Assembly: GCA_020073615.1 (NCBI GenBank) | Contig: JAIQEX010000060.1 | Location: 1-39,871 of the forward strand | Length of the DNA stretch: 39,871 bases | Reading direction: 5' to 3' | From: Terriglobia bacterium | Lineage (GTDB): Bacteria > Acidobacteriota > Terriglobia > Bryobacterales > Bryobacteraceae | Part shown: in pieces, positions 1-14,839 of the stretch | How the letters are laid out: the number at the start of each line of letters is the position of its first letter | How positions within the stretch are numbered: position 1 is the first letter of the stretch | The notes under the pieces: generated by a model | Seen by the model: only the letters and a program-made list of their open reading frames with translations | Databases searched by the model: none | What the model was told of the DNA's origin: nothing | Made by a program: the position numbers and the translations under genes

Positions 1-81
1 CTTGCGAGACTCGTCAATCTCCATGCGGTAAACCCTATATCCAGGCCATCCAAGTACTCTCGTCCAGTCGTGTTCCCTCAC
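1..81 (-). CDS. N-terminal fragment of probable ISL3-like transposase, cut by window edge
   Basis: Read on the minus strand from a GTG at 81, the frame is open to the window edge and gives 27 residues, including RVLGWPGYRVYRMEI. From memory this resembles the start of ISL3-family transposases, where a line of this type precedes the zinc-finger region. The rest of the gene lies outside the window. The start codon falls just after the end of the truncated IS1634-type gene, so this element appears to have landed in that gene. The ribosome-binding site is weak (GAGAG). The family call rests on a short stretch and could be wrong. Confidence 0.45.
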   Translation of the reverse strand, partial: MREHDWTRVLGWPGYRVYRMEIDESRK

Positions 82-85
82 TCTC

Positions 86-1138
86 TCAGGCTAATCGAAA
101 CCCCTTCTCTGAGAAAGCTGGCCTTTCAGGCAGTTTGTCGGATTCCTGCGCAGAGCCCTCTTTCCCATGCACCAGCATCTTCTCGGCTGCCGCCCGGACG
201 CCGGGATGGGCGGCACCGCAGACCGGGAGGTGCTCGACCCGCTTGTCTCGCAACTCGACCGGCGCTTGGGTCCACGGCAAGGCCGAGATCCAGCCCACGC
301 CGGCCTTTTCCAGTTCTACGGTATTGGCTAAGGCGGCGGAGCCTTTGTCCAGCACCAGCGTCACCGTGTCGCGAGCAATCTGATTGCGATCCAGCAGAAC
401 CACAATGCGCGACAGCGCCTCCGGCAGTTCGTCCGCATCGGCCACATTGCCTGGATAGACGTGATGGCACAGGCTCATGCCGTTTTCCCCGTCCAGCAAA
501 TAGCTCAGAGCTACCTGCCGCAAATTATGGCGGCCCTGCTTGTTATGTCCCCGCTGCGCCAGATGGTTGCGCTCATTGGTGCTGGCCACGTAGGTATAGA
601 AGTTGGTCGTATCGTAGGCCAGTAGGCGGCGGCTGACCAACTGCTTCTCTTTCCAAAGACCGAGGAGACGGATCTGCGCTTGATCCAGTTGTTCCTCGGG
701 AATGCGATCGAAGCAATCCCAAAATTCTTGCGAGGTAAACCGCTCGGGCGCGAAGCCCCACTGCGAACGCAGGATGGTACGGTCATACCAATCGGCGACT
801 TCGGTTTTCGGTCCGGGCTGGCAGACGCGGTGAATCGCGGCCAGCAACAGATAATGCGCCGGCGAGGGGCCGGAGCGGGGAGCGGGCCACAGTGACTGAA
901 GCAAGGCAAAGACGCCCGTGTTCTGGGCTGCCAACCAAAGGGAGCCGGGCAAACCGAACTCCAAGGCGGTAGCCTCCAGGGGAAGCGGCGCGGTTCGGTC
1001 TTTGACCAGCGCGGCCACCTTTTCGGCGCTACCGAGGTAAGCCTGGTGAACAATACGAGGTTGGCCGTCGACGCGAGCGCTTTCGACGACGTAGTAGTAG
1101 ATCTGGTTGCCTTTCTTCTTCCCGACGAGGGATGCCAT
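86..1138 (-). pseudogene. IS1634-family (IS4 superfamily) transposase, 3'-truncated
   Basis: The protein starts at MASLVGKKKGNQIYYYV (ATG at 1138; an upstream ATG at 1192 adds 18 unlikely residues). It carries hallmarks of IS1634-type DDE transposases: YDTTNFYTY (first catalytic Asp), RGHNKQGRHNLRQV, SLCHHVYPGNVADADEL and VLDKGSAALANTVEL (second Asp), then GWISALPW. Family members usually exceed 500 residues and have a C-terminal catalytic Glu. Here the similarity ends after LVHGKE, around position 165, and the reading frame stops at 86, so the C-terminal part is missing. The probable ISL3-like gene begins immediately after this, suggesting insertional truncation. The protein is unlikely to be an active transposase. 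Confidence 0.8.
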
Positions 1139-1416: not shown

Positions 1417-3258
1417 TCAATTCTCCGTCGAGTGCAATCCCCCCGCCCCCGCGCGGAAGGCGATGTTGCTGCGCGGCGGGTCTTCGTCGAGCGGTGCGGC
1501 GCAGTTCCAGAGGCAGGCTCCGCAGTGCACGCACTTTTCGCGGTCGAATACCGGCACGCCGTCGGGGCCGGGCGTGATCGCCTGGCCGGAGCACATCTCG
1601 ATGCACAGCTTCGTGGAGCAGCGCTCGCAGAAATCGGGATAGATAAAGCGGACGTGGTCGGCGAAGCCGGCCGGCGCCTGCACCTTGCCGCCGATCAGGA
1701 GCGCGTCCTGGTGCGAGACCAGCAGTTGGCCGTCGTACGGGATGGCCGGCCAGCCGCAGCGCTCCATCAGCGCGTTGTGACAGGAGACGCCGCGGTTGTG
1801 GCAGTCATCCATAATAGTGTCCAACTCGGCGGCGGGAATCTTGCGGCGGTAATATTCCTTGAGATCGGGCATGAGCCGCGGCTCACCCGCCAGCGAGCGC
1901 TTTCCATTGGTGAAGCCGGCCAAGGCCATGCCGATCAAGCCGGAAACCACGCCGCGGTGGAAGCCATCCCGCGCCTTTTCGGCCACGCGGCCTTCGCGTT
2001 CGACCCAACTCGCGCGCCGCCGCGCGACATAAGTGCGATCCAGGTTCTCTTTAGAGAGCGGCTTGCCTTTTTGGAACAGCTCGAGCACGGCCTCGGCGAG
2101 CTGCGATCCGGTGGTCCATGCCTCGTCCACGCCGCTGCCGGTGAGCACGTTGGTGCTGCCCGATCCCTCGCCGATGCGCGCGTAGCCGTTTCCGGCGAGG
2201 AACGGCTCGCCGCGCCGGCCCGATTCCTGGAGCGACTTGGCGCCCCAGCTTCGCAGCCTGCCGCCGGCGAGATGCCGCCACAGGTACGGGTGCAGCATGA
2301 AGTGCTGCAGGTAGCGGTACGAGGTGCGCATGGGGCTGCGGAACCACGACGGCACGAAGATGCCCACGGTCGCCACGCGATCGGGATGCACGTAGAGGAA
2401 GCCGAAGATCTCGGGCTCGGGGTAACCGAAGGTGTGGATCACCGTGCCCGGTTCGAGCGTCGCCGTCTCGGGCAGGTCCACCACCATCTTCATGCCCACG
2501 GCCCACTCGCGCTGGTGATGGCCGTCCGGCAGCCCGAACTCTCGATCGAGCTGCCGGCCGACCGCTCCCACCGGCCCGTCTCCCACCACGGTAAGGGCCG
2601 CGCGAATATCCATACCGGGCATGAACCCTGCTTCGGGATTGCCCAGTGAATCGGTGCCCTGGTCGCACAGGCGAACGCCGCGTACGCATTCAGCGGCCGG
2701 GTCGACCAGCGCCTCGGCGACCGGCATCCCCGGCCAGATTTGCACGGTGCCGCCGGCCATGAGGTCGTTGCCGATGGACTGCAGGAACTGGCCGAGCGAC
2801 ATTACCACGCCGCCGTGCTTGTGCAGGAAGGGCGGAATGTAGGGCAGTTCGACGGCATACTCACGGTGCAAGCGGAGCGTGCGCACGGCGCGGTCGGCGA
2901 GCCGCAGGGCGCGCGACCGCCGGCTGGCGCCGATGGGGTCGAGCAGGTAGACCACTTTTTCCTGCGAGACGGGCGCGGCCATGGGAATGCGGCCGGGGTC
3001 GAACTCGGGCAGGGTGGCGCGAATGCCGCGGGCGCGCGTCACCACGCCGGAGACGCCGAAGCCGATATCGTCGGCGCGCTCGTAGCAGAGCACTTGCAAG
3101 GGCAGCCCCGGGTTGGAGGGACTCTCGACCGCCGGCGTGCCATCGGGATTCACCAGCTTGCGCGAAAGCGCGGTCAGGAAGCCGGCCGCGGCCGGTCCGA
3201 AACCGACGCAGACGATGTCCACGTCCATGGTCTGGCGGTCGACAGCGGGTTCGCTCAT
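1417..3258 (-). CDS. ETF-QO-like FAD dehydrogenase with fused C-terminal FixX-type ferredoxin domain
   Basis: This 613-residue protein resembles electron-transfer flavoprotein:ubiquinone oxidoreductases and FixC-type flavoproteins, which pass electrons from acyl-CoA oxidation to quinone. An N-terminal dinucleotide-binding motif CVGFGPAAAG lies at about residues 17-26. The C-terminus carries C544-x2-C-x4-C-x3-C556 followed by C576-x2-C-x2-C-x3-C586 (CVHCGACLWNC). The second group plus CSGQAI matches the single [4Fe-4S] pattern of ETF-QO/FixX; the extra cysteines could ligate a second cluster. The ATG at 3258 overlaps the stop of the acyl-CoA dehydrogenase gene (ATGA), so the two are translationally coupled. 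Inferred role: receiving electrons from that dehydrogenase, directly or through ETF encoded elsewhere. No etfAB genes are in the window. Confidence 0.75.
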   Translation of the reverse strand: MSEPAVDRQTMDVDIVCVGFGPAAAGFLTALSRKLVNPDGTPAVESPSNPGLPLQVLCYERADDIGFGVSGVVTRARGIRATLPEFDPGRIPMAAPVSQEKVVYLLDPIGASRRSRALRLADRAVRTLRLHREYAVELPYIPPFLHKHGGVVMSLGQFLQSIGNDLMAGGTVQIWPGMPVAEALVDPAAECVRGVRLCDQGTDSLGNPEAGFMPGMDIRAALTVVGDGPVGAVGRQLDREFGLPDGHHQREWAVGMKMVVDLPETATLEPGTVIHTFGYPEPEIFGFLYVHPDRVATVGIFVPSWFRSPMRTSYRYLQHFMLHPYLWRHLAGGRLRSWGAKSLQESGRRGEPFLAGNGYARIGEGSGSTNVLTGSGVDEAWTTGSQLAEAVLELFQKGKPLSKENLDRTYVARRRASWVEREGRVAEKARDGFHRGVVSGLIGMALAGFTNGKRSLAGEPRLMPDLKEYYRRKIPAAELDTIMDDCHNRGVSCHNALMERCGWPAIPYDGQLLVSHQDALLIGGKVQAPAGFADHVRFIYPDFCERCSTKLCIEMCSGQAITPGPDGVPVFDREKCVHCGACLWNCAAPLDEDPPRSNIAFRAGAGGLHSTEN

Positions 3259-5492
3259 GCGGGGTAGTCCAGCGCCTCGGGGATCATGACTTTGGTCAGG
3301 GCCTCGGCAGCGCGGTCTTTGGCAAGCTGCGAGCCGGTGAGGCAGCCGTCCATGCGCACGCGCAAACGGCTGAACTGGTCCAGGCCGTCGAAGCGCGCGC
3401 AGGGGCCGGCCTTGGCGGGATGCGAGCCGTCGTGTTCGACGACGTCGGTATAGCCGCGGGCGAGGCTGCCGATGCCGGGGATCAATCCCTCCATGGCCTC
3501 CAGATCGTCCGCCTGGTAGCAGGTGGCGCAGCCTTCGGTGTCCCATGCGGGATGACGGTTGTAGCCGAACACCAGTTCGGCGGCGATGCGTCCCACTTCG
3601 CCGGCGGCGCGCGCCGATTGCACGTGGCACAGGTCGGTGAGGAACGCCATCAGTCCGGGCATGCCCTCGGCCACGGTGGGATTCGCGGGCCCCTTGCGGC
3701 CGAGCTCCAGCACGTCGAGAATCTGGGAGCGCGCCGCCAGCAGCCAGCAGAGCGCATCGGCCAGCGGGAAGGTGACGCCCTGCCGCGAGCCCTGGTAGAG
3801 CTTGCCGCCATCGGCATCTTTGGCCTGGAGCAGGTGGTGGAGCGTCCACAGCCACATCTGCATGGCGGTGGCGAGCGCGCAGGCGCCGGTGCCAGGGTGG
3901 TCGTTGGCGAGGGTGCGCATTTCGCGGATCCATTCCTGGAACTGCGCCAGGAACAGCTCGTCGGTCATGGTGACGCTGAGCTGGCGCCGCTGCACCGCTT
4001 CGGGGCCCTCGTAGGTGGCCTCGAGCTGCGCGTCCATCCACTTGTTTCCCAGGAAGCCGGGGCAGTCTTCGGTGATGCCGTAGCCGCCCATCAGGCTGAC
4101 CGCTTCGCGCATCACGCTGGCGCCGTGGCCGGTGTTCCACAGCTTGCAGGCGGGGCACAGGACGTTGGCCACGGAATCGAGCAGGGCGTATTGCACCAAC
4201 ATGTCGCCAGCGAGTTCCGGCCGTTTGCCGTGCAGGAATTCGATGGCGTCCTTCTGCACCTGGCGCATGGCCTTCATCATGGCCGAGCCTTTGATGCCGC
4301 GCGCCGCGAAGGTTTCGTGCTTCTGCCGCTCCAGCGGATCGAGCTCGTCGAACACGCGGGCCGCTGCGAAGCCGAGCGACGCCGAAGCCTCGCCCGTGGC
4401 CCACACCTCCACGAGGCGGTGCACCACATCCTGCTTGAGCTGGAGGCCGAGCTCGTAGCGCGGCGATCCCGGCGTGGCGATAGAGCCGCCGCGGAAGCGG
4501 CCGCGGCCATAGCGGATGACGGGCTCGACGGCCGAGAGCAGCTTGGCCGAGGTCATGATGGCCACGGTGACGCGCGTGCGGCGGAAGACGGCTTCGATGA
4601 TTTCCCCGTGGCTGTAGCGCGGCACGATGACGCCGTCCTGGACCGTGTAGCCGCCGATGATGCGGCTGGCGGGCACCCGCAGACTGAAGATGGGATCGCG
4701 CGTGGAGGAAAGCTGGTGGACGAGTTTGCGCGCCGGGGTGCCGCGGTCGAAGGTGCCGGGGTCGGTCTCCTCGAGGATCACCATGCAGGTGCCTTTGATG
4801 CGCGGATCGTCGGATTCCACCGCCGCGGTGACGAAGTTGGCGAAGCCCATGTTGGTGATGAAGCGGCCGCGCTTCTCCACCTGCAGCATGGGCTCCTGGC
4901 CTTCCTGCCAGGCGGCCACGCGCAGTTTGCCGCCGAGCATGCCGGTCTCGACGCCGACGTAGGGAATCGGCTCGGTAAGGCAAAAGGCGCCGCGCCAGGG
5001 CTTACGGTTTTCGCCGGGCTGGGCGGGCGCGCAACGGGTCATATAATAGTCGCGCTGTTCGGGCGTGCCGCGTTCGTGGATGGGGGAGAGCGCGAGGCAT
5101 CCGGCCAGGCTGCCCGTGGCGGCTCCGGCATCGACCCACGCCAGCTCAAACGCCACCAGCGCCAGCGCCAGGTTCTTGGGGCCTTCGATGAAGCCGCCCT
5201 GCGACGGTTCCATGAAGACGCCGGTGATGCCCGACTCGTCGAACGCCTGGAGCAGAGCCTGCTTGCCTTCGGTCCACTCGTGGGTGTTGCGTGCGCCCTC
5301 GGCCACCAGGCGCGCGACCGGGCCGCGGGCCACGGCGCGCACGGACTGCACCAGCATCTGGAGATCGTAGCGGCCGGCGAATCGCCACAGGATCTGGCGG
5401 ACATCGTCCCCGGGCAGGGCGCGCAGGTATTCGGTCTTGGTTTCGGTAGCGGCTAATGTCACAGCATCCCCCGTCCTTTGTGCCGCGGCCAT
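3255..5492 (-). CDS. Acyl-CoA dehydrogenase family protein, long form
   Basis: The protein is about 745 residues from the ATG at 5492, far longer than the usual ~380 residues of acyl-CoA dehydrogenases. Family signatures are AFCLTEPIPYVGVETG near 170 (substrate/FAD loop), RYGRGRFRGG near 327, LMGGYGITEDCPG at about 467-479 and ATYEGPEAVQRRQ around 492-504. The Glu of YEG (about 495) is at the position of the catalytic base in medium-chain enzymes. A ~240-residue C-terminal extension follows, mostly helical by composition. The first ~90 residues look like the N-terminal helical domain. Expected chemistry is alpha,beta-dehydrogenation of an acyl-CoA with FAD. The gene overlaps the ETF-QO-like gene by 4 bp. 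No clear Shine-Dalgarno precedes 5492, so the start is uncertain. Confidence 0.8.
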   Translation of the reverse strand: MAAAQRTGDAVTLAATETKTEYLRALPGDDVRQILWRFAGRYDLQMLVQSVRAVARGPVARLVAEGARNTHEWTEGKQALLQAFDESGITGVFMEPSQGGFIEGPKNLALALVAFELAWVDAGAATGSLAGCLALSPIHERGTPEQRDYYMTRCAPAQPGENRKPWRGAFCLTEPIPYVGVETGMLGGKLRVAAWQEGQEPMLQVEKRGRFITNMGFANFVTAAVESDDPRIKGTCMVILEETDPGTFDRGTPARKLVHQLSSTRDPIFSLRVPASRIIGGYTVQDGVIVPRYSHGEIIEAVFRRTRVTVAIMTSAKLLSAVEPVIRYGRGRFRGGSIATPGSPRYELGLQLKQDVVHRLVEVWATGEASASLGFAAARVFDELDPLERQKHETFAARGIKGSAMMKAMRQVQKDAIEFLHGKRPELAGDMLVQYALLDSVANVLCPACKLWNTGHGASVMREAVSLMGGYGITEDCPGFLGNKWMDAQLEATYEGPEAVQRRQLSVTMTDELFLAQFQEWIREMRTLANDHPGTGACALATAMQMWLWTLHHLLQAKDADGGKLYQGSRQGVTFPLADALCWLLAARSQILDVLELGRKGPANPTVAEGMPGLMAFLTDLCHVQSARAAGEVGRIAAELVFGYNRHPAWDTEGCATCYQADDLEAMEGLIPGIGSLARGYTDVVEHDGSHPAKAGPCARFDGLDQFSRLRVRMDGCLTGSQLAKDRAAEALTKVMIPEALDYPA

Positions 5493-5778
5493 GCGCGATT
5501 TCGCGCAGTTCGCGGGCTGGAGTGTATCGAAGGAGGGGAGAGAGCAATCCGCCTGCCAGGAGGAAAATGGTTGAGGATCAAGGAGTTGCAGGCATCTGCG
5601 GGGTTCTTGGACAGACGGCGTTGGTTCATATGCCCCAAGCGGCGGCATGCCGGGATGGGGGAAAAGACGGGACGTCTACTGCTTCGCCCCCGGCGTCGGT
5701 CACGTCATCTGCGCACGCACGACCGGATCCGCTGAAAGATTCGGAGGGTTTGGCTGCTACTGGGTCGCAAAGAAGGCG

Positions 5779-5921
5779 CATCCCGATTCCGCGATGCGGT
5801 TATCAGGGAAAATCCGGCCAGGTAATCTTCCGGGTTCTCGTTGCGAAAATCATCCAGGAGCAGAAACGGATCGCTTCGTTTTGCCAAAGCCAAAGGCCCG
5901 CCGGAGCGTTGCTGCTAAAAT
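5779..5921 (-). pseudogene. Pirin pseudogene fragment with two frameshifts and two nonsense codons
   Basis: Three minus-strand frames together spell part of a pirin. Frame one (from ~5921) reads ATLRRAFGFGKTKR. A shift then gives SDPFLLLDDFRNENPEDYL-AGF. A second shift, in a TTTT run, gives FP, then TGA and TAA, then PHRGIG. Pirins carry FPWHPHRGIE there, so the two stop codons sit exactly where Trp and His are expected. Pirins are cupin-fold proteins with a metal-binding His cluster, which includes the histidines of this motif. Nothing pirin-like is recognisable downstream of the motif, so only a ~50-codon N-terminal piece survives. This is a dead gene. Confidence 0.8.
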
Positions 5922-5961
5922 TCACTTCAGCCGCCTATACTAGCGCCAACGATAGCCCGTG

Positions 5962-5983
5962 GCCAGACATTAACGTGTCTGGC
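5962..5983 (-). terminator. Short hairpin downstream of the 6057-6524 gene
   Basis: GCCAGACA and TGTCTGGC form perfect 8-bp arms around a 6-base loop TTAACG. It lies about 75 bp past the stop of the minus-strand three-gene cluster. No U-tract follows in that direction, so a role as terminator is only suggested. Confidence 0.3.
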
Positions 5984-6056
5984 ATTCACTCCTTTTGTCT
6001 CACATTCCTTCGCTGGCCGGGGCTGGCGGGCTGCTGGGGAACTTGCCGCGTGAAGA

Positions 6057-6524
6057 TCAGTTTCGCAGGCGCACGTGGATGGCGAAGGCCGCCCGCGGGG
6101 CGGCCGAAGCCGGGGACACGGCCGGCGACGGCACTCCGTGATCGATGGTATTGGCATAGGCCCGGCCGGCGAAGTATGCGGCCACCACCCCGAGCACCAC
6201 GTTGATGGGCGTGCGCGTCTTGGGGAAGTAGTGTTTGACCGTCATGGCGGCGAACACAATGCCGGTCTCCATGCCGAGCTGTTGCGCGGGGGTAAGGGTG
6301 TATTCCTTCCCGCGCAGAGTGTAGTGCCAGTCGGTCTTGGCATACGAGAAGCCCGATGCCAGGACCGCGACGGTGGCCAGGTTGCCAGGGTCGGAAAGCG
6401 CGTCCCAAAACGGCGTGGCAGCCGGTGCGGGAGGGGGCGCGGGGGGCGGTGCGGGGGGCGCGGTCTGCGCTACGGCAGAGAGCGCCAGCACGAGAGTGAG
6501 CGTAGTCGAAAGCAATGTTTTCAT
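6057..6524 (-). CDS. Small exported or membrane protein of unknown function
   Basis: The 155-residue product starts with a typical signal peptide (MKTLLSTTLTLVLALSAVAQ), followed by a Pro/Ala linker of PPAPPPAP repeats up to about residue 36. Three moderately hydrophobic segments follow, near ATVAVLASGFSYA, GMETGIVFAAMTV and NVVLGVVAAYFAGRAYA, so it may be anchored in the inner membrane rather than periplasmic. It is last in a three-gene minus-strand cluster, 16 bp after the preceding stop. I do not recognise the family. Confidence 0.6.
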   Translation of the reverse strand: MKTLLSTTLTLVLALSAVAQTAPPAPPPAPPPAPAATPFWDALSDPGNLATVAVLASGFSYAKTDWHYTLRGKEYTLTPAQQLGMETGIVFAAMTVKHYFPKTRTPINVVLGVVAAYFAGRAYANTIDHGVPSPAVSPASAAPRAAFAIHVRLRN

Positions 6525-6540
6525 AGAGGGTTCGTTTCTG

Positions 6541-6879
6541 TCACCGGATGATCTCTTGCTCCATCAGATCGTCCAGCAGGTCTTCGAAGGTCCGGAAGTA
6601 GCGCTGCTGCACGTAGGGCGAGAGCGTTTCCCAGGCGCCGAACTCGGCGGCGGGTGATTCCTGCTCGAGATTCTGGACGTAACGCATGTAGAACAGGGGC
6701 GCCAGGTGAACGGCGTCAAAACGCCGGGGGTCTAAGCTGGTTAATGCGGGCACGACATTCTCCTCGGGAGGGGGCAACAGTTTCAGGTTGCGGTAGCAAA
6801 TCGCGCGGCAGGGAGCAAACCGCCAGTGCAGAGAGCCGCGGCAGGCCTCCCGGCAGCGGGAACAGATCCGTTCCGGCAT
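6541..6879 (-). CDS. Hypothetical protein with Cys-rich N-terminus
   Basis: From the ATG at 6879, 10 bp after the upstream stop, this is 112 residues. A further ATG at 6933 would overlap the upstream gene by 44 bp. The first 30 residues hold five cysteines (CSRC, then C13, C24, C28), which could bind a metal. The rest is acidic and helical with many aromatics (FYMRYVQNLEQE, YVQQRYFRTFEDLLDDLMEQ). I recognise no family. Its position between a papain-fold hydrolase and an exported protein suggests a shared process. No signal peptide is seen. Confidence 0.5.
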   Translation of the reverse strand: MPERICSRCREACRGSLHWRFAPCRAICYRNLKLLPPPEENVVPALTSLDPRRFDAVHLAPLFYMRYVQNLEQESPAAEFGAWETLSPYVQQRYFRTFEDLLDDLMEQEIIR

Positions 6880-6889
6880 CAGAGCGGAT

Positions 6890-7504
6890 TCAGACGGTGT
6901 TGAAGTTGCGGATCGCCGCCGGCGGCCCGGCAAGCTGCGTGCAACCGGCGTAGAGGCGCATCTCGGCCAGCCGCTGGGGCGGCGTTTGCACCGGTTGTAA
7001 GCCGGGCAGACCGCCGGCGGCCAACAACTCGGCCAGGAGTTCGGAGCATACCTCGCTGTCCGAATCGGGTTTATAGAGTTGCGGCAGGTAGCTCAGGACC
7101 GGCACCCGGCGTCCGACGTAGGCCAGCAATTCCCCCACGTTGTAGTGATCGTGTCCGACCTTGGCCTGGGCCATGTTCCACATGGCGGCGAAATCGAGCA
7201 TGGCGCGTACCCGGTCGCTGAGGGGGCACCACCACACACGTCCCTGGTACCGGGCTATGCGCTCTTCGAGGGGATTCCATTGGGGTCCCGATTTGCCGTT
7301 GAGGATGGTACTTTCGATCAGCAGCGAGGAGTCGGAGTAAACCATGGCCGAATGGGTCGGCCCGCGGGTCAGCAGCTTGATGGCATTGCTTGTGAAGTCG
7401 CCGATGATATGCACCAGATCGGAGGCGTCGGAGCCGTCGAAGAAGAGAATGTCGCCGCCGCGCATACCAGCGCGGACGGATTGATAGGTTGTGAGGTCGT
7501 TCAT
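6890..7504 (-). CDS. YiiX-like permuted papain-fold (NlpC/P60 superfamily) cysteine hydrolase
   Basis: The 204-residue protein has the signature order of the permuted NlpC/P60 (YiiX/YebB/LRAT-like) group: GDILFFDG near residue 17, a His in GPTHSAMVY (H51) and then a Cys in SEVCSELLAELL (C153). Classical NlpC/P60 enzymes have Cys before His. Members of this group cleave amide or thioester bonds, some of them in lipids or peptidoglycan-derived substrates; the substrate here is unknown. There is no signal peptide, so it is probably cytoplasmic. It is first in a cluster of three minus-strand genes. Confidence 0.7.
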   Translation of the reverse strand: MNDLTTYQSVRAGMRGGDILFFDGSDASDLVHIIGDFTSNAIKLLTRGPTHSAMVYSDSSLLIESTILNGKSGPQWNPLEERIARYQGRVWWCPLSDRVRAMLDFAAMWNMAQAKVGHDHYNVGELLAYVGRRVPVLSYLPQLYKPDSDSEVCSELLAELLAAGGLPGLQPVQTPPQRLAEMRLYAGCTQLAGPPAAIRNFNTV

Positions 7505-7683
7505 ATTCGCCTGTCCGGCGCGGGTTGCGCGGGCGGCGCGGGATTACCGCGCCGCCCCTCCCAGGCCACGGGAAACGGGAGTTGCCGGAGCAACTCCTCC
7601 TGATTCGACGGTAGCAGGCGCCTGGTGCAACAAATACGCTGTAGGCTACTGATTCGGCAGGCGAAAAAAGTTGTGATCGGGAA

Positions 7684-7758
7684 ACCCGCCCCTCGGGCGG
7701 GTCGGCAAGCTAAAGCATGCCCCACCACCGCTGTCTTGGTGGGGCATGCTTTAGCTTG
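7684..7758. terminator. Two adjacent perfect hairpins after the NYN gene
   Basis: Hairpin one: ACCCGCCC (7684-7691) and GGGCGGGT (7695-7702) around a 3-base loop. Hairpin two: 21-bp perfect arms at 7706-7726 and 7738-7758 around an 11-base loop. The larger hairpin ends 11 bp past the stop of the minus-strand NYN gene. On the plus strand it is followed by GGCGGTTTTTG; on the minus strand hairpin one is followed by TTTCCC. It may terminate transcription in both directions, or be a dispersed palindromic (REP-like) element. Confidence 0.6.
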
Positions 7759-7769
7759 GCGGTTTTTGT

Positions 7770-9116
7770 CTATACGGGCTGTTTCTTCCGCGGGCGCGTG
7801 ATGCGTTTTTTCTGTCCGGGCTCGCCGGAAGTCTTGCGGGGCGCGCGCGGACGGCGCTGGGGCTTGGGTGGCAAAGCGGGCAAGGGGATTTCGCCGGTGG
7901 CGGTGGGCTGTCCCGGCACCAGGGGCTGCGGCTCGTCCTCTTCCTCCTCCTCGACGTGCGCCGGAGGCTCGGGTTCGGGCGGTGCGGCGGGCGGATGGAA
8001 CTCGGTGCCCAGGTATACTGTGAGGCCCTTCTCTTCATCCGCTTGAATGCGCACGAGGCCCTTGTCCTGGGCATAGTTCAACAGCTCGCTGAACTCCTGG
8101 AAGCCGTACTCGCGCGAGTCGAAGCTGGGGTGTTCCTGGCGGACAAATTCGGCCAGCTCGTCGACCGGCGAGCCGTTGTCGATTTCGATGCGGTGCATTT
8201 CGAGCACGTCGCGCAGCAGGGGGATGGCCTGCTCGGGCTTGGCGCCGGGCTTCTCGGGAGCGGCGCCGCCCTTCATGCGGATCATGTACCGGCCTTCGCC
8301 GCCGGTGACCTCGACGAAATCGGCCTTCTGCAGCTTCTCCACGAAATCGGTGAAGGAGCTGGCACCATAGGCCTTTTCGTTGAACGTGGAATCGAGCTGC
8401 AGCATGGTGGATTTCAGCAGGCCGAGCTGTGGCCGCACCTCGCGGCGCTCGAGCACTCCGAGGGCGCGCTCGACCAGCGGCATGGACTGCGTCAGGTCGA
8501 GCGCCACGCGCTTGTGCGGCTGGCGCTGCTGCTGTTGCTGTTGCTGCTGTGGCGGGCGCTCGCCATGCTGTTGCGGCTGCGGCTGCGACTGCTGCTGCTG
8601 GGGCTGCTGCTGCGGTTGCTGCTGATGCCCCGACGAGCGCGGCCGGGGGTCGTCGATGATGGATTCGTAGGCCACGAATTCGTGGCAGTTCTTCTGGAGG
8701 ATGGTGCTGGTGAAAGCGCGGCCTCCGACCACGAAGATGCGCTTGTCGTACTGCTTCAGCTTGTTCACCAGCGCGATGAAGTCGCTGTCACCGCTGACGA
8801 TGGCGAAGGCGTTGATGTGGTCGTGGGTGAAGGCCATCTCGAGAGCATCGAGCGCCAGGTTGATGTCGGCGCCATTCTTGTCGCCGCGCGGCGAAGGGTC
8901 GCGCTGGACCATCTGCACGGCGTGCTCGGAGAGAGCGCGGGTAGCGGATTCCTGCCTTCCCCAGTTCGCGTAAGCAAACTTGGTCACGATTTCGCCGCGT
9001 TCCTTCAACGCGTCCAGCACGGCCTCCACGTCGAATTCGCGGTGCAGGGTGGACTTGACGCCGATTTCGATATTGTCAAAATCGATGAACACGGCGATCT
9101 TTAGTTTTTGTTCCAT
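7770..9116 (-). CDS. NYN (PIN-like) domain protein with poly-Q linker and two LOTUS/OST-HTH-like domains
   Basis: The ATG at 9116 is preceded by AAGGA at good spacing and gives 448 residues. Residues 1-155 form an NYN/LabA-type PIN-like nuclease domain: FIDFDN (D12, D14), GADINLALDALE (D84) and VSGDSDF (D110, D112) supply the acidic metal-binding cluster. Residues 165-199 are a Gln-rich linker. Two similar segments follow, about 204-285 and 295-372, each with the pattern of an OST-HTH/LOTUS RNA-binding fold (YGASSFTDFVEKL; YGFQEFSELLNYA). The tail is acidic, then strongly basic (residues 419-447). Inferred role: RNA binding and cleavage. It lies 165 bp downstream of tyrA and probably has its own promoter. 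Confidence 0.8.
   Translation of the reverse strand: MEQKLKIAVFIDFDNIEIGVKSTLHREFDVEAVLDALKERGEIVTKFAYANWGRQESATRALSEHAVQMVQRDPSPRGDKNGADINLALDALEMAFTHDHINAFAIVSGDSDFIALVNKLKQYDKRIFVVGGRAFTSTILQKNCHEFVAYESIIDDPRPRSSGHQQQPQQQPQQQQSQPQPQQHGERPPQQQQQQQQRQPHKRVALDLTQSMPLVERALGVLERREVRPQLGLLKSTMLQLDSTFNEKAYGASSFTDFVEKLQKADFVEVTGGEGRYMIRMKGGAAPEKPGAKPEQAIPLLRDVLEMHRIEIDNGSPVDELAEFVRQEHPSFDSREYGFQEFSELLNYAQDKGLVRIQADEEKGLTVYLGTEFHPPAAPPEPEPPAHVEEEEEDEPQPLVPGQPTATGEIPLPALPPKPQRRPRAPRKTSGEPGQKKRITRPRKKQPV
8520..8624 (-). repeat. CAG/CAA trinucleotide tract encoding poly-Gln linker
   Basis: Coding-strand CAG and CAA codons, interrupted by Pro, Ser, His, Gly, Glu and Arg codons, encode residues 165-199 of the NYN protein, including a run of eight Gln. 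Alternation of CAG and CAA means it is not a pure microsatellite. Confidence 0.7.
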
Positions 9117-9281
9117 TTTGAATTCCTTATGTCCGGCAATCGGTCCGGCGGAGGGGTACCCCCTGGGTCCTGTCCGCCGCGACTGAAAGGCCGCGGGCCT
9201 GCCGGAGGGCGAAACGTCCGCCGGCGAATCAGCTAAATTCGATGGCCTCATGATTAGTTTATCCTAAATCGGCGGAGGGAA

Positions 9282-10127
9282 TCAGACCATCCTCCGCAAG
9301 CGGCCCGCCAGAGCGGCGCCGCGTTCGAATTCCCTTTGAAGCTGCCGCGTTCGAAGGTTCTCGCGCATGTGCTCCAGCTTCTGAATGTACGCCGCCAGCG
9401 CCCGGTCGATGTGTGGGGCGTTGGTGGCCAGGATATCGCGCCAAAGATCGTATGAGCCGAGCGCGAGGCGGGTCATGTCCGCGAGGCCGGGCCCGGCTAC
9501 CCGCAAGCGCGGGGCGGCGCCCAGCGAGTCCTCGACTGTGGCGGCAAGCGCGGTGGCGGCGAGTTGCGGCAGGTGCGAGGTGAGCGCCACCACGCGGTCG
9601 TGCTCGTCGGCATCGAGAACGATGATGCGCGCGCCGATCCGTTCCAGCCAGGAGCGGAACTCGCGCGCCGCCGGGGTTTCCAACTCCGCCGGGTCGTCCG
9701 GGGTCAGGGCCCAGGTGCGGTCCCGGTAGAGACCGGCGTCGGCCTGGGCGGCGCCGCGCATTTCCTTGCCGGCCATGGGGTGGCCTCCCAGGAACTGGCA
9801 GCGGGCGATCGCCTGGCGCGCCACATCGACGATTTCGCACTTGGTGCTGCCGGCGTCGGTGACCAGGGCGCCTGGGGAGAGCAGCGGGTCGAGATGGCGC
9901 AGGGTGTGGAGGATGCCCCCGATGGTCTGCGAAAGGAAGACGAGACTGGCGGCCGGCACGGCTTCTGCGAGCGGCGCGCCGCGGTCAATGGCGCCGCGGG
10001 TCACGGCATCGGCGATGGCGCCTGGCGAGCTGACGCCGGTGATGGGTCCGGCGAACCCGGCCTGGCGCAGCGCCAGCCCGAACGATGCGCCGATCAGGCC
10101 GGTACCGATGATGGCTACACTATCCAC
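9282..10127 (-). CDS. tyrA: Prephenate dehydrogenase
   Basis: This 281-residue enzyme oxidatively decarboxylates prephenate to 4-hydroxyphenylpyruvate in tyrosine synthesis, using NAD(P)+. It has the N-terminal Rossmann motif GTGLIGASFGLAL, the family block GGHPMAGKE near 114, and SHLPQL near 184 in the helical C-terminal domain. There is no ACT or chorismate mutase domain. The start is GTG at 10127 with GAGG about 10 bases upstream, 12 bp after the aroF stop. It is the last gene of the aromatic operon. An arogenate preference cannot be excluded from sequence. Confidence 0.88.
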   Translation of the reverse strand: MDSVAIIGTGLIGASFGLALRQAGFAGPITGVSSPGAIADAVTRGAIDRGAPLAEAVPAASLVFLSQTIGGILHTLRHLDPLLSPGALVTDAGSTKCEIVDVARQAIARCQFLGGHPMAGKEMRGAAQADAGLYRDRTWALTPDDPAELETPAAREFRSWLERIGARIIVLDADEHDRVVALTSHLPQLAATALAATVEDSLGAAPRLRVAGPGLADMTRLALGSYDLWRDILATNAPHIDRALAAYIQKLEHMRENLRTRQLQREFERGAALAGRLRRMV

Positions 10128-10139
10128 TCGGCAAAGGCC

Positions 10140-11153
10140 TCAGATGCTCCGCTCCACGGCGGGAGCGATCATGCGCAACTGGCGCATCAGCTCCTCGAAC
10201 TGCTCCGGCCGGAGCGATTGCGCGCCGTCGCTGAGCGCATGGTCGGGGTCGGGGTGGACTTCGATGAGCAGCCCGTCGGCGCCGGCGGCCACCGCGGCGC
10301 GGGCCATGGGCGACACCTTATCGCGCCGCCCGGTGCCGTGCGAGGGGTCGCCGATAATGGGCAGGTGCGATAGCTTTTTCACCACCGGTATGGCGGAGAT
10401 GTCCATGGTATTGCGCGTGTACGTCTCGAAAGTGCGGATGCCGCGCTCGCACAGGATCACGTCGTAGTTTCCCCCTGCGAGGATGTATTCGGCGGAGAGC
10501 AGCAGCTCTTCGATGGTAGCGGAAATCCCGCGCTTGAGGAGGACCGCCTTGCGCTGCCGTCCCAGTTCGCGCAGCAGGTTGAAATTCTGCATGTTGCGCG
10601 CGCCCACCTGGAGGATATCGGAATACTGCGCCACCAGCGGGATCTGCGTGTGGTCCATGACTTCGCTGACCACCAGCAGCCCGTTGCGGTCGGCGGCCTG
10701 GCGCATCAATTGCAAGCCCTCTTCGCCGAGGCCCTGGAAGGCGTAGGGCGAGCTGCGCGGTTTGAAGGCGCCGCCGCGGATCACGCGCGCCCCGGCGCGG
10801 GCCACCAGCTCCGCGATTCGTTCGATCTGGTCGCGGCTCTCCACGCTGCACGGCCCGGCCATGACCACCACGCGCGGGCCTCCTATATCCACGTCGCCAA
10901 CCTTGACCACCGTGCCCGCCGGCCGGAAACTGCGGCTGGCCAGCTTGTACGGCGCGGCGATGCGGTGTGCCTCCTTGACCCCTTCCATGACCTCGAAGAT
11001 GGCCAGATCGAACTCGGTCTTGCCGCCCACTCCGCCCAGGACGGTGTGAATGACGCCCGTGGAACGATGCACATCGAAGCCCATTTCCACCAAACGGTCG
11101 ATCACCTTCTGGATCTGTTGCTCGGTGGCGCCCTGCTGCATCACGACTAACAT
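10140..11153 (-). CDS. aroF: 3-deoxy-7-phosphoheptulonate (DAHP) synthase, type I-beta with N-terminal regulatory domain
   Basis: The 337-residue protein condenses phosphoenolpyruvate and erythrose 4-phosphate, the first step of the shikimate pathway. Residues 1-70 form the small ferredoxin-like domain seen in Thermotoga-type enzymes, which carries feedback regulation. The TIM-barrel core shows [29 protein letters not shown] and DPSHGTGRR, typical of this class. Its ATG directly follows the TAA of the chorismate mutase gene (TAAATG). Placement with chorismate mutase and tyrA fits coordinated control of aromatic flux. Confidence 0.92.
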
Positions 11154-11462
11154 TTATTTCTCCCCGTCCGGCCCGCGCTCCATGCGCACGCGCTGGATGA
11201 TGCGCATCTCATCGATGACGCGCTCGAAGATGCGGCGGACCGCTTCTTCGCTGAGCGGCCCGCGATTGCATTGCATGACATTGGCAAACACCTGGTCTTC
11301 GCGCTTCGGTTCGTAGATGGGCAGCCGCGCCTCGCGCTTCACGCGGCCGATATCCTCGACCACGGTGGTGCGCTCGTTGAGCAGGTCGACGATGCGGCGG
11401 TCCACGTCGTCGATGAGCACGCGGAACTCTTCGAGCCTGTCGCGCGCCTCGGCGGCGGTCAT
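11154..11462 (-). CDS. aroQ: Chorismate mutase, AroQ type
   Basis: The 102-residue all-helical protein has the AroQ pattern: LRxxIDxxDRRIVDLLNER in helix 1 (here FRVLIDDVDRRIVDLLNER), then IGRVKREARLPIYEPKRE and a C-terminal helix ending in MRIIQRVRM. It converts chorismate to prephenate, the branch point to Phe and Tyr. It is free-standing and may associate with the adjacent DAHP synthase, as in some bacteria, although the synthase has its own regulatory domain. The ATG overlaps the trpA stop (ATGA) and the stop abuts aroF. Confidence 0.88.
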   Translation of the reverse strand: MTAAEARDRLEEFRVLIDDVDRRIVDLLNERTTVVEDIGRVKREARLPIYEPKREDQVFANVMQCNRGPLSEEAVRRIFERVIDEMRIIQRVRMERGPDGEK

Positions 11463-12262
11463 GGGCGCACTCCGAAGCCGTGCTTGAGCTCGCGGGCGAA
11501 GCTTTCGAGCTGGATTTCGAGCGAGGCGTTGTCCAGATTTCGTTCGATCAGGCGCACGAAAGCGCTGCCCACCACCACCGCTTCCACCTGCCGCCCCAAT
11601 TCCGCCACGTGCTCAGGCTTGGAAATGCCGAAGCCCACGGCGAGCGGCAGATCGGTGATGGCGCGCATGGCACGGATGAGCGGCGCGGCGGCGGCGGAGA
11701 GTGAGTCGCGCTCGCCGGTGACGCCCGCGCGCGATACCAGGTAGACGAACCCAGTGGAGTATTGGGCCACCAGTTTCATGCGGCGTTCGGTCGAGGTGGG
11801 GGCGGCCAGGAAGACGGTGTCGAGTCCGCAGCGGTGCATGGCGGCGACGTAATCACCGGCCTCTTCCACCGAGGCGTCGGTGAGCAGGCAGCCGTCGATG
11901 CCCGCCGCCGCGGCGTCACGGGCGAGGCGGTCGAGGCCGTAGCGCAGCACGGGGTTGAGATACGTGAACAGGAGGAGCGGTACTTCGGAGCGGCCGCGGA
12001 TTTCCTCCGCGATGGCGAGCACGGCTTTCAAGTTGGTACCGGCTTTGAGCGCGCGCTCTCCGGCGCGTTGAATGACCGGGCCATCGGCGATGGGGTCGGA
12101 AAACGGCACGCCGAGCTCGATCAGGTCGGCGCCGCCGCGGATGAGCGCTTCTACCAGCGCGGGTGTGCGTTCGGGTGCGGGATCGCCCGCCGTGAGGTAG
12201 GCGATGAAGCCCTTGCGGCCGTCCCGCCGCAGGCAGTCGAAAAGGCGCCCGATGCGCGTCAT
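11459..12262 (-). CDS. trpA: Tryptophan synthase alpha subunit
   Basis: The 267-residue protein splits indole-3-glycerol phosphate to indole and glyceraldehyde 3-phosphate. Motifs include [10 protein letters not shown] near the N-terminus, [19 protein letters not shown] (catalytic Glu), [15 protein letters not shown] (catalytic Asp region) and [10 protein letters not shown] at the phosphate site. Length is normal. It overlaps trpB upstream and aroQ downstream by 4 bp each. It pairs with TrpB to channel indole. Confidence 0.95.
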
Positions 12263-13455
12263 GACTGGTCGAGTTCCTTGAAGTTTTCGCGGTAGATATC
12301 GATATCTTTGTCGCCGCGGCCGGAGACGTTCACCAGGAAGAGCTGGCCGGCTGCGGCGGGGGCGCGCTTCGCCGCCTCGGCGACGGCGTGCGCGGATTCG
12401 AGCGCGGGAATGATGCCTTCGGTGCGCGACAGCAGGCGCGCGGCATCGAGGGCCTCGGCGTCGGACGCGGCGGTATACTCAGCGCGGTTCCGGTCGTGCA
12501 GCCAGGCATGCTCGGGGCCGATCATGGCGTAATCGAGCCCGGCGGAAACGGAATGCGTCAGGGCAATCTGGCCGTCTTCGTCCTGGAGGACGTAGCTGTA
12601 GGCGCCTTGCAGGACGCCGGGCGCTCCGCCGCGGTAGCGGGCCGCATGTTCGCCCACGGCATTGCCGCGCCCGCCGGCCTCGACACCGATCAACGCGACG
12701 GTCGGATCGGGCAGGAAGGCGTGGAAGATACCGATGGCATTGCTGCCGCCGCCCACGCAGGCAAAGACGGCGTCGGGCAGGCGGCCTTCGGAAGCCAGGA
12801 ACTGGGCGCGCGCTTCCTCGCCGATCACCTTCTGAAAATCGCGCACCATCATGGGGTAAGGATGGGCGCCCAGCACGGAGCCCAGCAGGTAGTGCGTGCC
12901 GGCGACGTTCGAGACCCAGTCGCGCATGGCCTCGCTGATGGCGTCCTTCAGGGTGCGGCTGCCCGCCGCGACGCCCACCACGCGGGCGCCGAGCATGCGC
13001 ATACGGAAAACGTTGAGGCGCTGGCGGCGCATGTCCTCTTCGCCCATATAGACCACGCATTCGAAGCCGAGCAGGGCGCACACTGTCGCGGTGGCCACGC
13101 CGTGCTGGCCGGCGCCGGTTTCGGCGATGATGCGGCGCTTGCCCATGCGGCGGGCGAGCAGCGCCTGGCCCAGGCAGTTGTTGATCTTGTGGGCGCCGGT
13201 GTGGAGCAGGTCCTCGCGCTTGAGCCAGATGCGCGCGCCGCCCAGCGTTTCGCTGAGCCGGCGCGCGAAGTAGAGCGGCGTGGGGCGGCCGGCATAAGTG
13301 CGCAGCAGTTCATTGAGCTCGGCCTGGAACGCGGGGTCCTGGCGCGCGGCCGTGTAGGCCTCGGCCAGTTCCTCGATGGGCGCCATGAGGACTTCGGGGA
13401 CGTAGCGGCCGCCGTACGGTCCGAAATGGCCGCCCTGATCCGGCTGCGGAGTCAT
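12259..13455 (-). CDS. trpB: Tryptophan synthase beta subunit
   Basis: This 398-residue PLP enzyme joins indole and serine to make tryptophan. HTGAHKINN carries the PLP Schiff-base Lys, [12 protein letters not shown] is the substrate carboxylate loop with its Glu, and [10 protein letters not shown] binds the PLP phosphate. The start ATG at 13455 overlaps the trpF stop (ATGA). It is the canonical TrpB1 type, adjacent to trpA. Confidence 0.96.
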
Positions 13456-14054
13456 GAGCGGAAGGCCTCCCTCGCGGCCTGGAGGAAGGCGCGCATCTTC
13501 GCATAATCTTTCTTGCCGGGGGCACTTTCGATGCGCGAGCAGGCGTCCACGCCCCACGGCCGCACGAGCGCGATGGCCTCGCCCACATTGGAGGCATCGA
13601 GCCCGCCGGCCAGGATGATGCGCCGGGCAGACACGCCGGCCAGGCGCCAGTCGAACGCGCGGCCCGCGCCGCCGTACAGCCCGTCGGCGGGACCATCGAG
13701 CAGCAGCGCTTCGGCGGGGCACTGGTCGTAGAGCGAAAGATCGAAGCCATTGCCCACGCGCGCGGCTTTCCACACGGCGAGCGCGGCGGGGTAGTCCGCG
13801 GGAGTCTCGTCGCCGTGCAACTGGGCCACATCGAGCGCGGCGGCGCCGGCGATCTCTGCGATGCGCGCGCGCTCGAGGTTCACGAACACGCCCACGCGGA
13901 GCACGCCGGCCGGCGAGGCGATGGCGCGGGCTTGTTGGGGAGCGATATAGCGCGGGCTCTGGGCGTAGAAATTGAAACCGATAGCGGTGGCGCCGGCTTC
14001 GATGGCCGCGTCCGCATCTCCCTGGCTGGTGATGCCGCAGATCTTCAGAATCAT
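13452..14054 (-). CDS. trpF: Phosphoribosylanthranilate isomerase
   Basis: The 200-residue TIM-barrel enzyme performs the Amadori rearrangement of phosphoribosylanthranilate. It begins [14 protein letters not shown], containing the catalytic Cys of the KICG motif, has VAQLHGDE in the middle and [11 protein letters not shown] (phosphate site) near the C-terminus, followed by [15 protein letters not shown], where the usual Ser/Gly-rich VDVSSGVE motif is modified. The ATG at 14054 overlaps the trpC stop. Confidence 0.93.
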
Positions 14055-14839
14055 GCCGCCACCAGCGCCCGCAAGGCAGCCGCGGGGTCGGGCGACCGCA
14101 TGAGCCGCTCGCCCACCAGGAATGCCGTGTAGCCGGCGGCGCGCAAGCGGGCGATATCGCGCGCATCGTGTATGCCGCTTTCGCTCACGCGGACCACGCT
14201 GGCGGGCATGCACTCCGCCAAGTGGAGCGAGGTTTCCAGGGTGACTTTGAAAGTGGCAAGATCGCGGTTGTTGACGCCGATTATTTCGCTGCCAGCGCCG
14301 ATGGCGGTCTCGAGCTCGCGGCGGTTGTGCACCTCCACCAGCGCAGCCATTCGGTAGCGCGCGGCGGCCTCGCGGAAATCGCGGATCTCGCGCTCGCCGA
14401 GGATGGCGGCGATCAACAGAATGGCATCGGCCCCGTGGGCCGCCGCCTGCAGAATGTGGGCTGAGTCGATGGTAAAGTCTTTGCGCAACACGGGGAGCGA
14501 GACGGCCGTGCGGGCGCGGCCGAGATCGGCCAGGCTGCCCTGGAAAAAGGACTCGTCGGTGAGCACGGACACGGCCGCGGCGCCGCCCGCTTCATAAGCG
14601 GTGGCGATGCGGGCGGCATCGAAATCGCCCGAAAGAAGGCCCTTGCTGGGAGAGGCTTTCTTCACCTCGGCAATGATGGCGGGCGTGCGCGCGCAGAGGG
14701 CCGCGCGAAAATCGCGCCGCGCGGGGAGGTGCAGGGCGGCCAGCCGCTCCCATTCATCCAGCGCAGGGGCGAGGCCGGCAAGTTCTTCGCGTTTCTTGGC
14801 GACAATACGGGCCAGGATGTCTGGAATCGTCTCGATCAA
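14051..14839 (-). CDS. trpC: Indole-3-glycerol phosphate synthase
   Basis: The 262-residue TIM barrel closes the indole ring in tryptophan synthesis. Family blocks are [61 protein letters not shown] and VSESGI. The start is a TTG at 14839, preceded by AGGGA; no better in-frame ATG exists near the conserved N-terminus. This is the first gene of the seven-gene aromatic operon; trpE, trpG and trpD are not in the window. Confidence 0.93.

Follow-up and report, generated by a model that had tools for sequence, protein, structure and literature searches.

The ACAD/ETF/ETF-QO chain of mitochondria and proteobacteria assigns three roles to an acyl-CoA dehydrogenase (ACAD), ETF and ETF-QO. ETF is usually a hub common to many dehydrogenases, and quinone-linked ETF-QO normally accepts its electrons from ETF. 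Canonical ETF-QO contains one cluster, held by four cysteines. ACADs of the VLCAD/ACAD9/FadE type (3owa, 2z1q, 2uxw) combine the ACAD core with a helical C-terminal domain. In the Fix/EtfABCX system of Thermotoga maritima (7KOE; PMC10734219), as described in the available portion of that report, ETF occurs with a quinone-reducing EtfC-like flavoprotein and with two [4Fe-4S] clusters, both in EtfX. Another link from ETF to quinone is EtfD, a membrane FeS ETF:menaquinone oxidoreductase, homologues of which are reported from Acidobacteriota in the accessible text of its description (PMC13083937). In anaerobes, the iaa operons carry an ETF paralogue that has been speculated to be the dedicated ETF of one ACAD, IaaF (PMC8360864).

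The window, that is the whole 39,871-nucleotide stretch of DNA analysed here, encodes an ACAD and an ETF-QO-like flavoprotein (QO), whose model aligns full-length with porcine ETF-QO (2gmh). With an ETF encoded elsewhere in the genome, the pair has the same three roles as the mitochondrial and proteobacterial chain. In contrast to that chain, the ETF and QO look private and co-inherited with one ACAD, the ETF is highly diverged, and QO has eight cluster cysteines in place of four. Compared with Thermotoga EtfABCX, a single protein here unites the EtfC- and EtfX-like parts, an ACAD joins the set, and none of the group-2 motifs is present (PMC10734219). QO is not homologous to EtfD, which is not encoded at this locus. 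The iaa-operon ETF belongs to a different ACAD and pathway, and the part of that publication at hand makes no mention of an ETF-QO of this type (PMC8360864). Identity of the ACAD to 3owa, 2z1q and 2uxw is 16-19%, and its C-terminal domain differs from theirs in having conserved cysteines, no Pfam family and homologues that are separate proteins.

Table 1 Coordinates of the features discussed; positions refer to the window unless another locus is named
Feature	Position	Strand	Basis
ETF-QO-like flavoprotein (QO), 613 aa, with two-cluster ferredoxin-type tail	1417..3258	-	Pfam; AF2 model; 2gmh_A, 7koe_C
2x[4Fe-4S]-type motif of QO: Cys 544, 547, 552, 556 and 576, 579, 582, 586	1501..1629	-	Pattern in 44/44 rows
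Acyl-CoA dehydrogenase (ACAD), 745 aa	3255..5492	-	VLCAD/FadE-like architecture; 55-row alignment; AF2 model; 3owa_B
C-terminal helical domain of ACAD, residues 500-745; conserved Cys 538, 658, 698, 717	3258..3995	-	Stand-alone homologues; no Pfam family
Glu495 codon, presumed catalytic base of the TYEG motif	4008..4010	-	E495 invariant, 55 rows
Stand-alone C-domain and ordinary ACAD gene	L095:5337-6134 and 6134-7687		
Stand-alone C-domain, directly before ordinary ACAD gene	L094:481-1413		
Stand-alone C-domain, divergent beside EtfB-EtfA-ACAD operon	L089:5012-5653		

Most of what a sequence-only reading of the pair had described holds. The two minus-strand genes overlap by 4 bp (ATGA; ACAD frame end 3255, QO start 3258), and the dehydrogenase has the expected 745 residues from the ATG at 5492. 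Alternative starts are open in frame at 5648 or at a GTG at 5462 (735 aa); the alignment of most relatives begins at about residue 4-23. The ACAD does have a C-terminal extension, some 240 residues beyond residue ~505, and the four extra cysteines of the partner are present in a tail of the form CxxCx4CxxxC-x19-CxxCxxCxxxC, a dicluster pattern shared by 44/44 aligned relatives. ETF genes are indeed missing near the pair, as none of the eight PF01012 matches in the genome is on the window's contig (C242) or in the window. Our data support well the dedicated electron route that was proposed from these features, with etfAB in the loci of relatives, ETF elsewhere in the genomes where it is unlinked, and an orthologous pair in the window's own genome. 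They contradict the accompanying suggestion of a direct dehydrogenase-to-quinone complex that bypasses ETF. We propose instead that ACAD and QO are probably the two ends of a private four-protein chain leading from ACAD via a dedicated EtfAB and a two-cluster ETF-QO to quinone.

The ACAD matches PF02771 (ACAD N) and PF00441 (ACAD C) above cut-off at ~1e-10, with no match of the middle domain PF02770 at E 0.001. Its active-site TYEG motif is found in 54/55 alignment rows (TSEG in L043) and the FAD-contact motif F[IV]TN in 55/55; these motifs and the N and C domains place the protein among the ACADs. The catalytic-base role of Glu495 is carried over from MCAD-type enzymes and is presumed here. 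The AF2 model (pLDDT 82.7) superposes on 3owa_B with Z 28.4 and rmsd 3.4 over 531 residues (span 34..737) and on 2z1q_A with Z 28.2 (span 34 to 736). Because these alignments run into the extension, the latter is, as modelled, a VLCAD/FadE-type helical domain following the core; the assignment is one of fold, no family model being above cut-off. Segments 471-478, 647-651, 653-657 and 693-698 have pLDDT under 50, which may point to an absent ligand or just to poor modelling.

QO is recognized by ETFQO_UQ-bd (PF21162, 4e-9), while two Fer4 families match below their cut-offs. Its AF2 model (pLDDT 81) aligns with porcine ETF-QO (2gmh_A) at Z 30.0 over 520 residues (span 1..612) and with Thermotoga EtfC (7koe_C), which lacks the tail, at Z 25.4 over 364 residues. 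The PF21162 match and the fit to 2gmh_A identify an FAD/quinone-binding fold with a C-terminal [4Fe-4S] domain as in ETF-QO; we file the protein as an ETF-QO-like variant since it has the eight-cysteine pattern and not exactly one cluster with four cysteines. Confidence in the modelled tail is low (block means 47-71 for residues 541-600), and a PDB search with the tail alone returned nothing at E 1. In plasmid records all QO and ACAD matches are under 60% identity, and none of the ACAD matches covers 80%.

Relatives of the ACAD were collected by a scan of genome contigs, and the best 80 of 136 (L009-L088; 68-95% identity) were compared with gene ends taken from mechanical ORF calls. Record titles of these 80 name Acidobacteria and Verrucomicrobia and, once each, Omnitrophota, Methylomirabilota and Eisenbacteria; as most titles say MAG, the single-record phyla may be misbinned. 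In 63/80 of these best 80 of 136 loci QO starts no more than 350 nt from the ACAD stop, with the same 4-bp overlap in 12, so the pairing is not chance. QO lies farther off in 8/80 loci and is absent from 9/80; all nine of the latter genomes have it elsewhere, that of L020 with a match only over 135-468. In one locus QO is in two pieces (L035:5666-7488), possibly through a frameshift or assembly error.

Downstream of QO, two gene clusters of ~270 aa and ~340 aa recur in 37 and 36 loci, respectively (union 38/80, best 80 of 136). PF01012 identifies them as ETF: 3/4 EtfB and 4/4 EtfA tested pass the cut-off, the EtfB of L045 falling just below it (24.5 vs 26.7 bits). Among the 45 loci testable for linkage (QO no more than 350 nt away and followed by 1,500 nt or more of sequence), 32 include this family ETF, with EtfB within 750 nt in 30. 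Among the more distant relatives, ACAD-QO-etfB-etfA is the most frequent arrangement and presumably the ancestral one. Gene order in relatives had been named beforehand as the observation that could overturn the bypass, and it went against it: etfB and/or etfA are in the locus in 30/34 testable cases from L028-L088, so ETF is associated with the pair. Among the closest relatives (L009-L027; at least 75% identity, with titles naming mostly Bryobacterales or Solibacter) the figure is only 2/11, which counts against a private chain. In these genomes and in that of the window, etfBA is mostly unlinked but kept. EtfA is found elsewhere in 40/42 genomes that lack ETF in the locus, the exceptions being L010 and L044, both MAGs. 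In total, 78/80 genomes (best 80 of 136) carry the family ETF, L032 and L043 being counted by EtfB alone.

The window's genome has an orthologous EtfB-EtfA pair of this family on contig C83, both proteins scoring over the PF01012 cut-off. Its identity to the ETF encoded in the L017 operon is 72-75%, whereas the genome's three further ETF pairs match that ETF only marginally. A TAG in the match to the C83 EtfA (L098:5889-6896) is the gene's own stop, and 5892-6896 reads through (335 aa). We therefore rejected the reading that this system has no ETF, given the C83 pair and the family EtfA and EtfB in relatives' genomes. Judged from the operon alone, the route in this genome would wrongly be taken as ETF-free. 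The genome has eight PF00441 matches, this ACAD included, and a single ETF-QO homologue (E to 0.001), besides a 53-residue FeS match. CCG/Fer4 proteins of EtfD type adjoin the ETF pairs on C140 and C224; beside that on C60 none was noticed in 12 kb, neighbours being read by eye.

Of 199 Acidobacteriota genomes, 7 have the full-length ACAD; these 7 and no others have QO (E to 1e-60), and EtfA is present in all 7 and additionally in G164. In 396 genomes searched for the ACAD C-domain and EtfB, the C-domain occurs in 15, of which 12 have the ACAD (that of G351 cut at the contig start), and EtfB is in the same 12 and G164 but in 0/3 genomes with a stand-alone C-domain; none of these counts is of independent cases, as the genomes share ancestry. 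Two observations count against a private chain: G164 (82% complete) lacks ACAD and QO but carries both EtfA and EtfB, and a second ACAD copy in G156 (L092), matched over residues 19-672 only, has no QO or ETF in an 8-kb stretch.

In the chain that we favour, the VLCAD/FadE-like ACAD would oxidize an acyl-CoA and, as gene order and co-occurrence suggest, hand the electrons to the dedicated, diverged EtfAB. EtfAB would then reduce the EtfC-EtfX-like ETF-QO, whose eight cysteines predict two [4Fe-4S] clusters, and by homology these clusters and FAD would pass electrons to the membrane quinone. The chain would run beside the genome's other ETF pairs, two of which adjoin EtfD-type FeS proteins. One ACAD appears to own its ETF and two-cluster ETF-QO, with joint inheritance of all of them even where the genes lie apart, and such a private ETF is a natural test of ETF partner choice. 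In human ETF, an EPR-type loop region recognizes the dehydrogenase. Where other EtfBs (three from the window's genome and one from G041) have a short EPR-type loop, the family EtfB (n=3) has an insertion, which would fit a private partner. No NCBIfam model reaches its cut-off for ACAD, QO or the ETF pair (that of L017), so all four proteins are likely annotated as generic ACAD or ETF parts. The family EtfA at L017:6457-7455 weakly matches the mycofactocin-associated EtfA model (3.4e-7; 29.9 bits vs cut-off 240). The module of ACAD, QO and ETF is real, conserved and outside the family models tried, and we recognized no description of it in the titles and abstracts listed by searches of an open-licence library.

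Instead of serving β-oxidation, the chain could also run backwards or be biosynthetic, its enzyme desaturating or reducing an acyl-CoA or acyl-carrier intermediate in the making of a lipid or secondary metabolite. The patchy occurrence (7/199 Acidobacteriota genomes) and the high conservation among the best 80 of 136 relatives would fit, as would the gene neighbourhood: among 66 scanned of 85 same-strand neighbours (short and some near-duplicate ones were left out) no substrate-gene clue and no β-oxidation gene recurs beside the pair, TPR families being the only ones to match more than two. We nevertheless regard this as unlikely, given that the active-site motifs match those of ordinary ACADs and that ETF is the usual electron donor of quinone-linked ETF-QO.

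Electron bifurcation would be a different departure from the private chain, with ACAD and EtfABCX forming a bifurcating or confurcating complex in which the chemistry of acyl-CoA and of NAD(H) or ferredoxin is coupled to quinone. The two-cluster tail of QO recalls Thermotoga EtfX, as far as the available portion of the report describes it (PMC10734219), and 7koe_C ranks second in the VIA fold comparison of the QO model. The same text gives RxGV and GxxSPTxV of EtfB and RPxFGG of the large subunit as motifs of the bifurcating group 2 (PMC10734219). In the family ETF we found EtfB RxGV in 0/24, EtfB GxxSPTxV in 0/24 and EtfA RP.[FLIM]GG in 0/24 sequences, and this absence of three motifs makes bifurcation unlikely. 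EtfA instead has RW[FYH]YRQ in 24/24, in which the Arg of the RPxFGG motif is kept; that Arg is not exclusive to group 2 according to the available text (PMC10734219). As QO, moreover, aligns over more residues with ETF-QO than with EtfC (though EtfC lacks the tail), we consider a bifurcating or confurcating complex improbable.

Direct docking of the ACAD on QO through the C-terminal extension, delivering electrons without any ETF, would suit the gene overlap and the lack of ETF genes on the window's contig, but is highly improbable in view of the family ETF in nearly all relatives' genomes (best 80 of 136) and in the window's own, and of a C-domain that has a VLCAD-type fold and exists without a close QO. 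Stand-alone C-domain genes occur in G042 (265 aa as called) and G029 (310 aa), each directly before an ordinary ACAD gene. A third, in G041, adjoins an EtfB-EtfA-ACAD operon in which RPAFGG is retained by EtfA and GLAGSPTKV by EtfB; G041 was the genome that matched only the C-domain among the 199 Acidobacteriota genomes. It was found by the ACAD profile, and its match to the C-domain profile is by construction, its sequence having been in that profile. QO searches give no more than distant matches in any of the three genomes, and the C-domain is therefore independent of this QO. The extension was therefore dropped as a candidate QO dock, of which it gives no evidence: it has a VLCAD/FadE-type fold, and three genomes that lack this QO and ETF encode it as a protein of its own.

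Neither the C-domain nor any of its three stand-alone homologues matches a Pfam family at E 1. Cys 538, 655, 658, 698 and 717 are kept in all three. The domain might be a new modular ACAD subunit, fused here and separate beside ordinary ACADs in other Acidobacteriota, that binds a metal centre such as [4Fe-4S] via Cys 538, 655/658, 698 and 717; we think this unlikely. Retention in all three stand-alone proteins holds for 4/6 conserved Cys columns against 43/105 conserved columns in general, with no clear excess in these raw counts; as conserved columns are thus often kept and L026 lacks both C655 and C658, the metal site is only a possibility. Invariant ACAD positions likewise show no clear excess of Cys (5/14 Cys vs 203/745 residues, raw counts). 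If present, a metal-binding C-domain would give the ACAD its own redox or structural centre.

The pair is flanked by ORFs 86-1138 (transposase-like, by eye) and 6057-6524, and these neighbours therefore give no hint of a pathway. The transposase-like ORF lies past the QO end near the contig start and could mark a rearrangement that separated the pair from etfBA. Elsewhere in the window, an imperfect GCTGCT-type repeat at 8525-8628 encodes a glutamine-rich stretch of the minus-strand ORF 7770-9251. It is followed at 9282-14839 by a minus-strand run of genes that by eye resembles aromatic amino-acid biosynthesis, with TyrA-, AroF-, chorismate mutase-, TrpA-, TrpB-, TrpF- and TrpC-like products.
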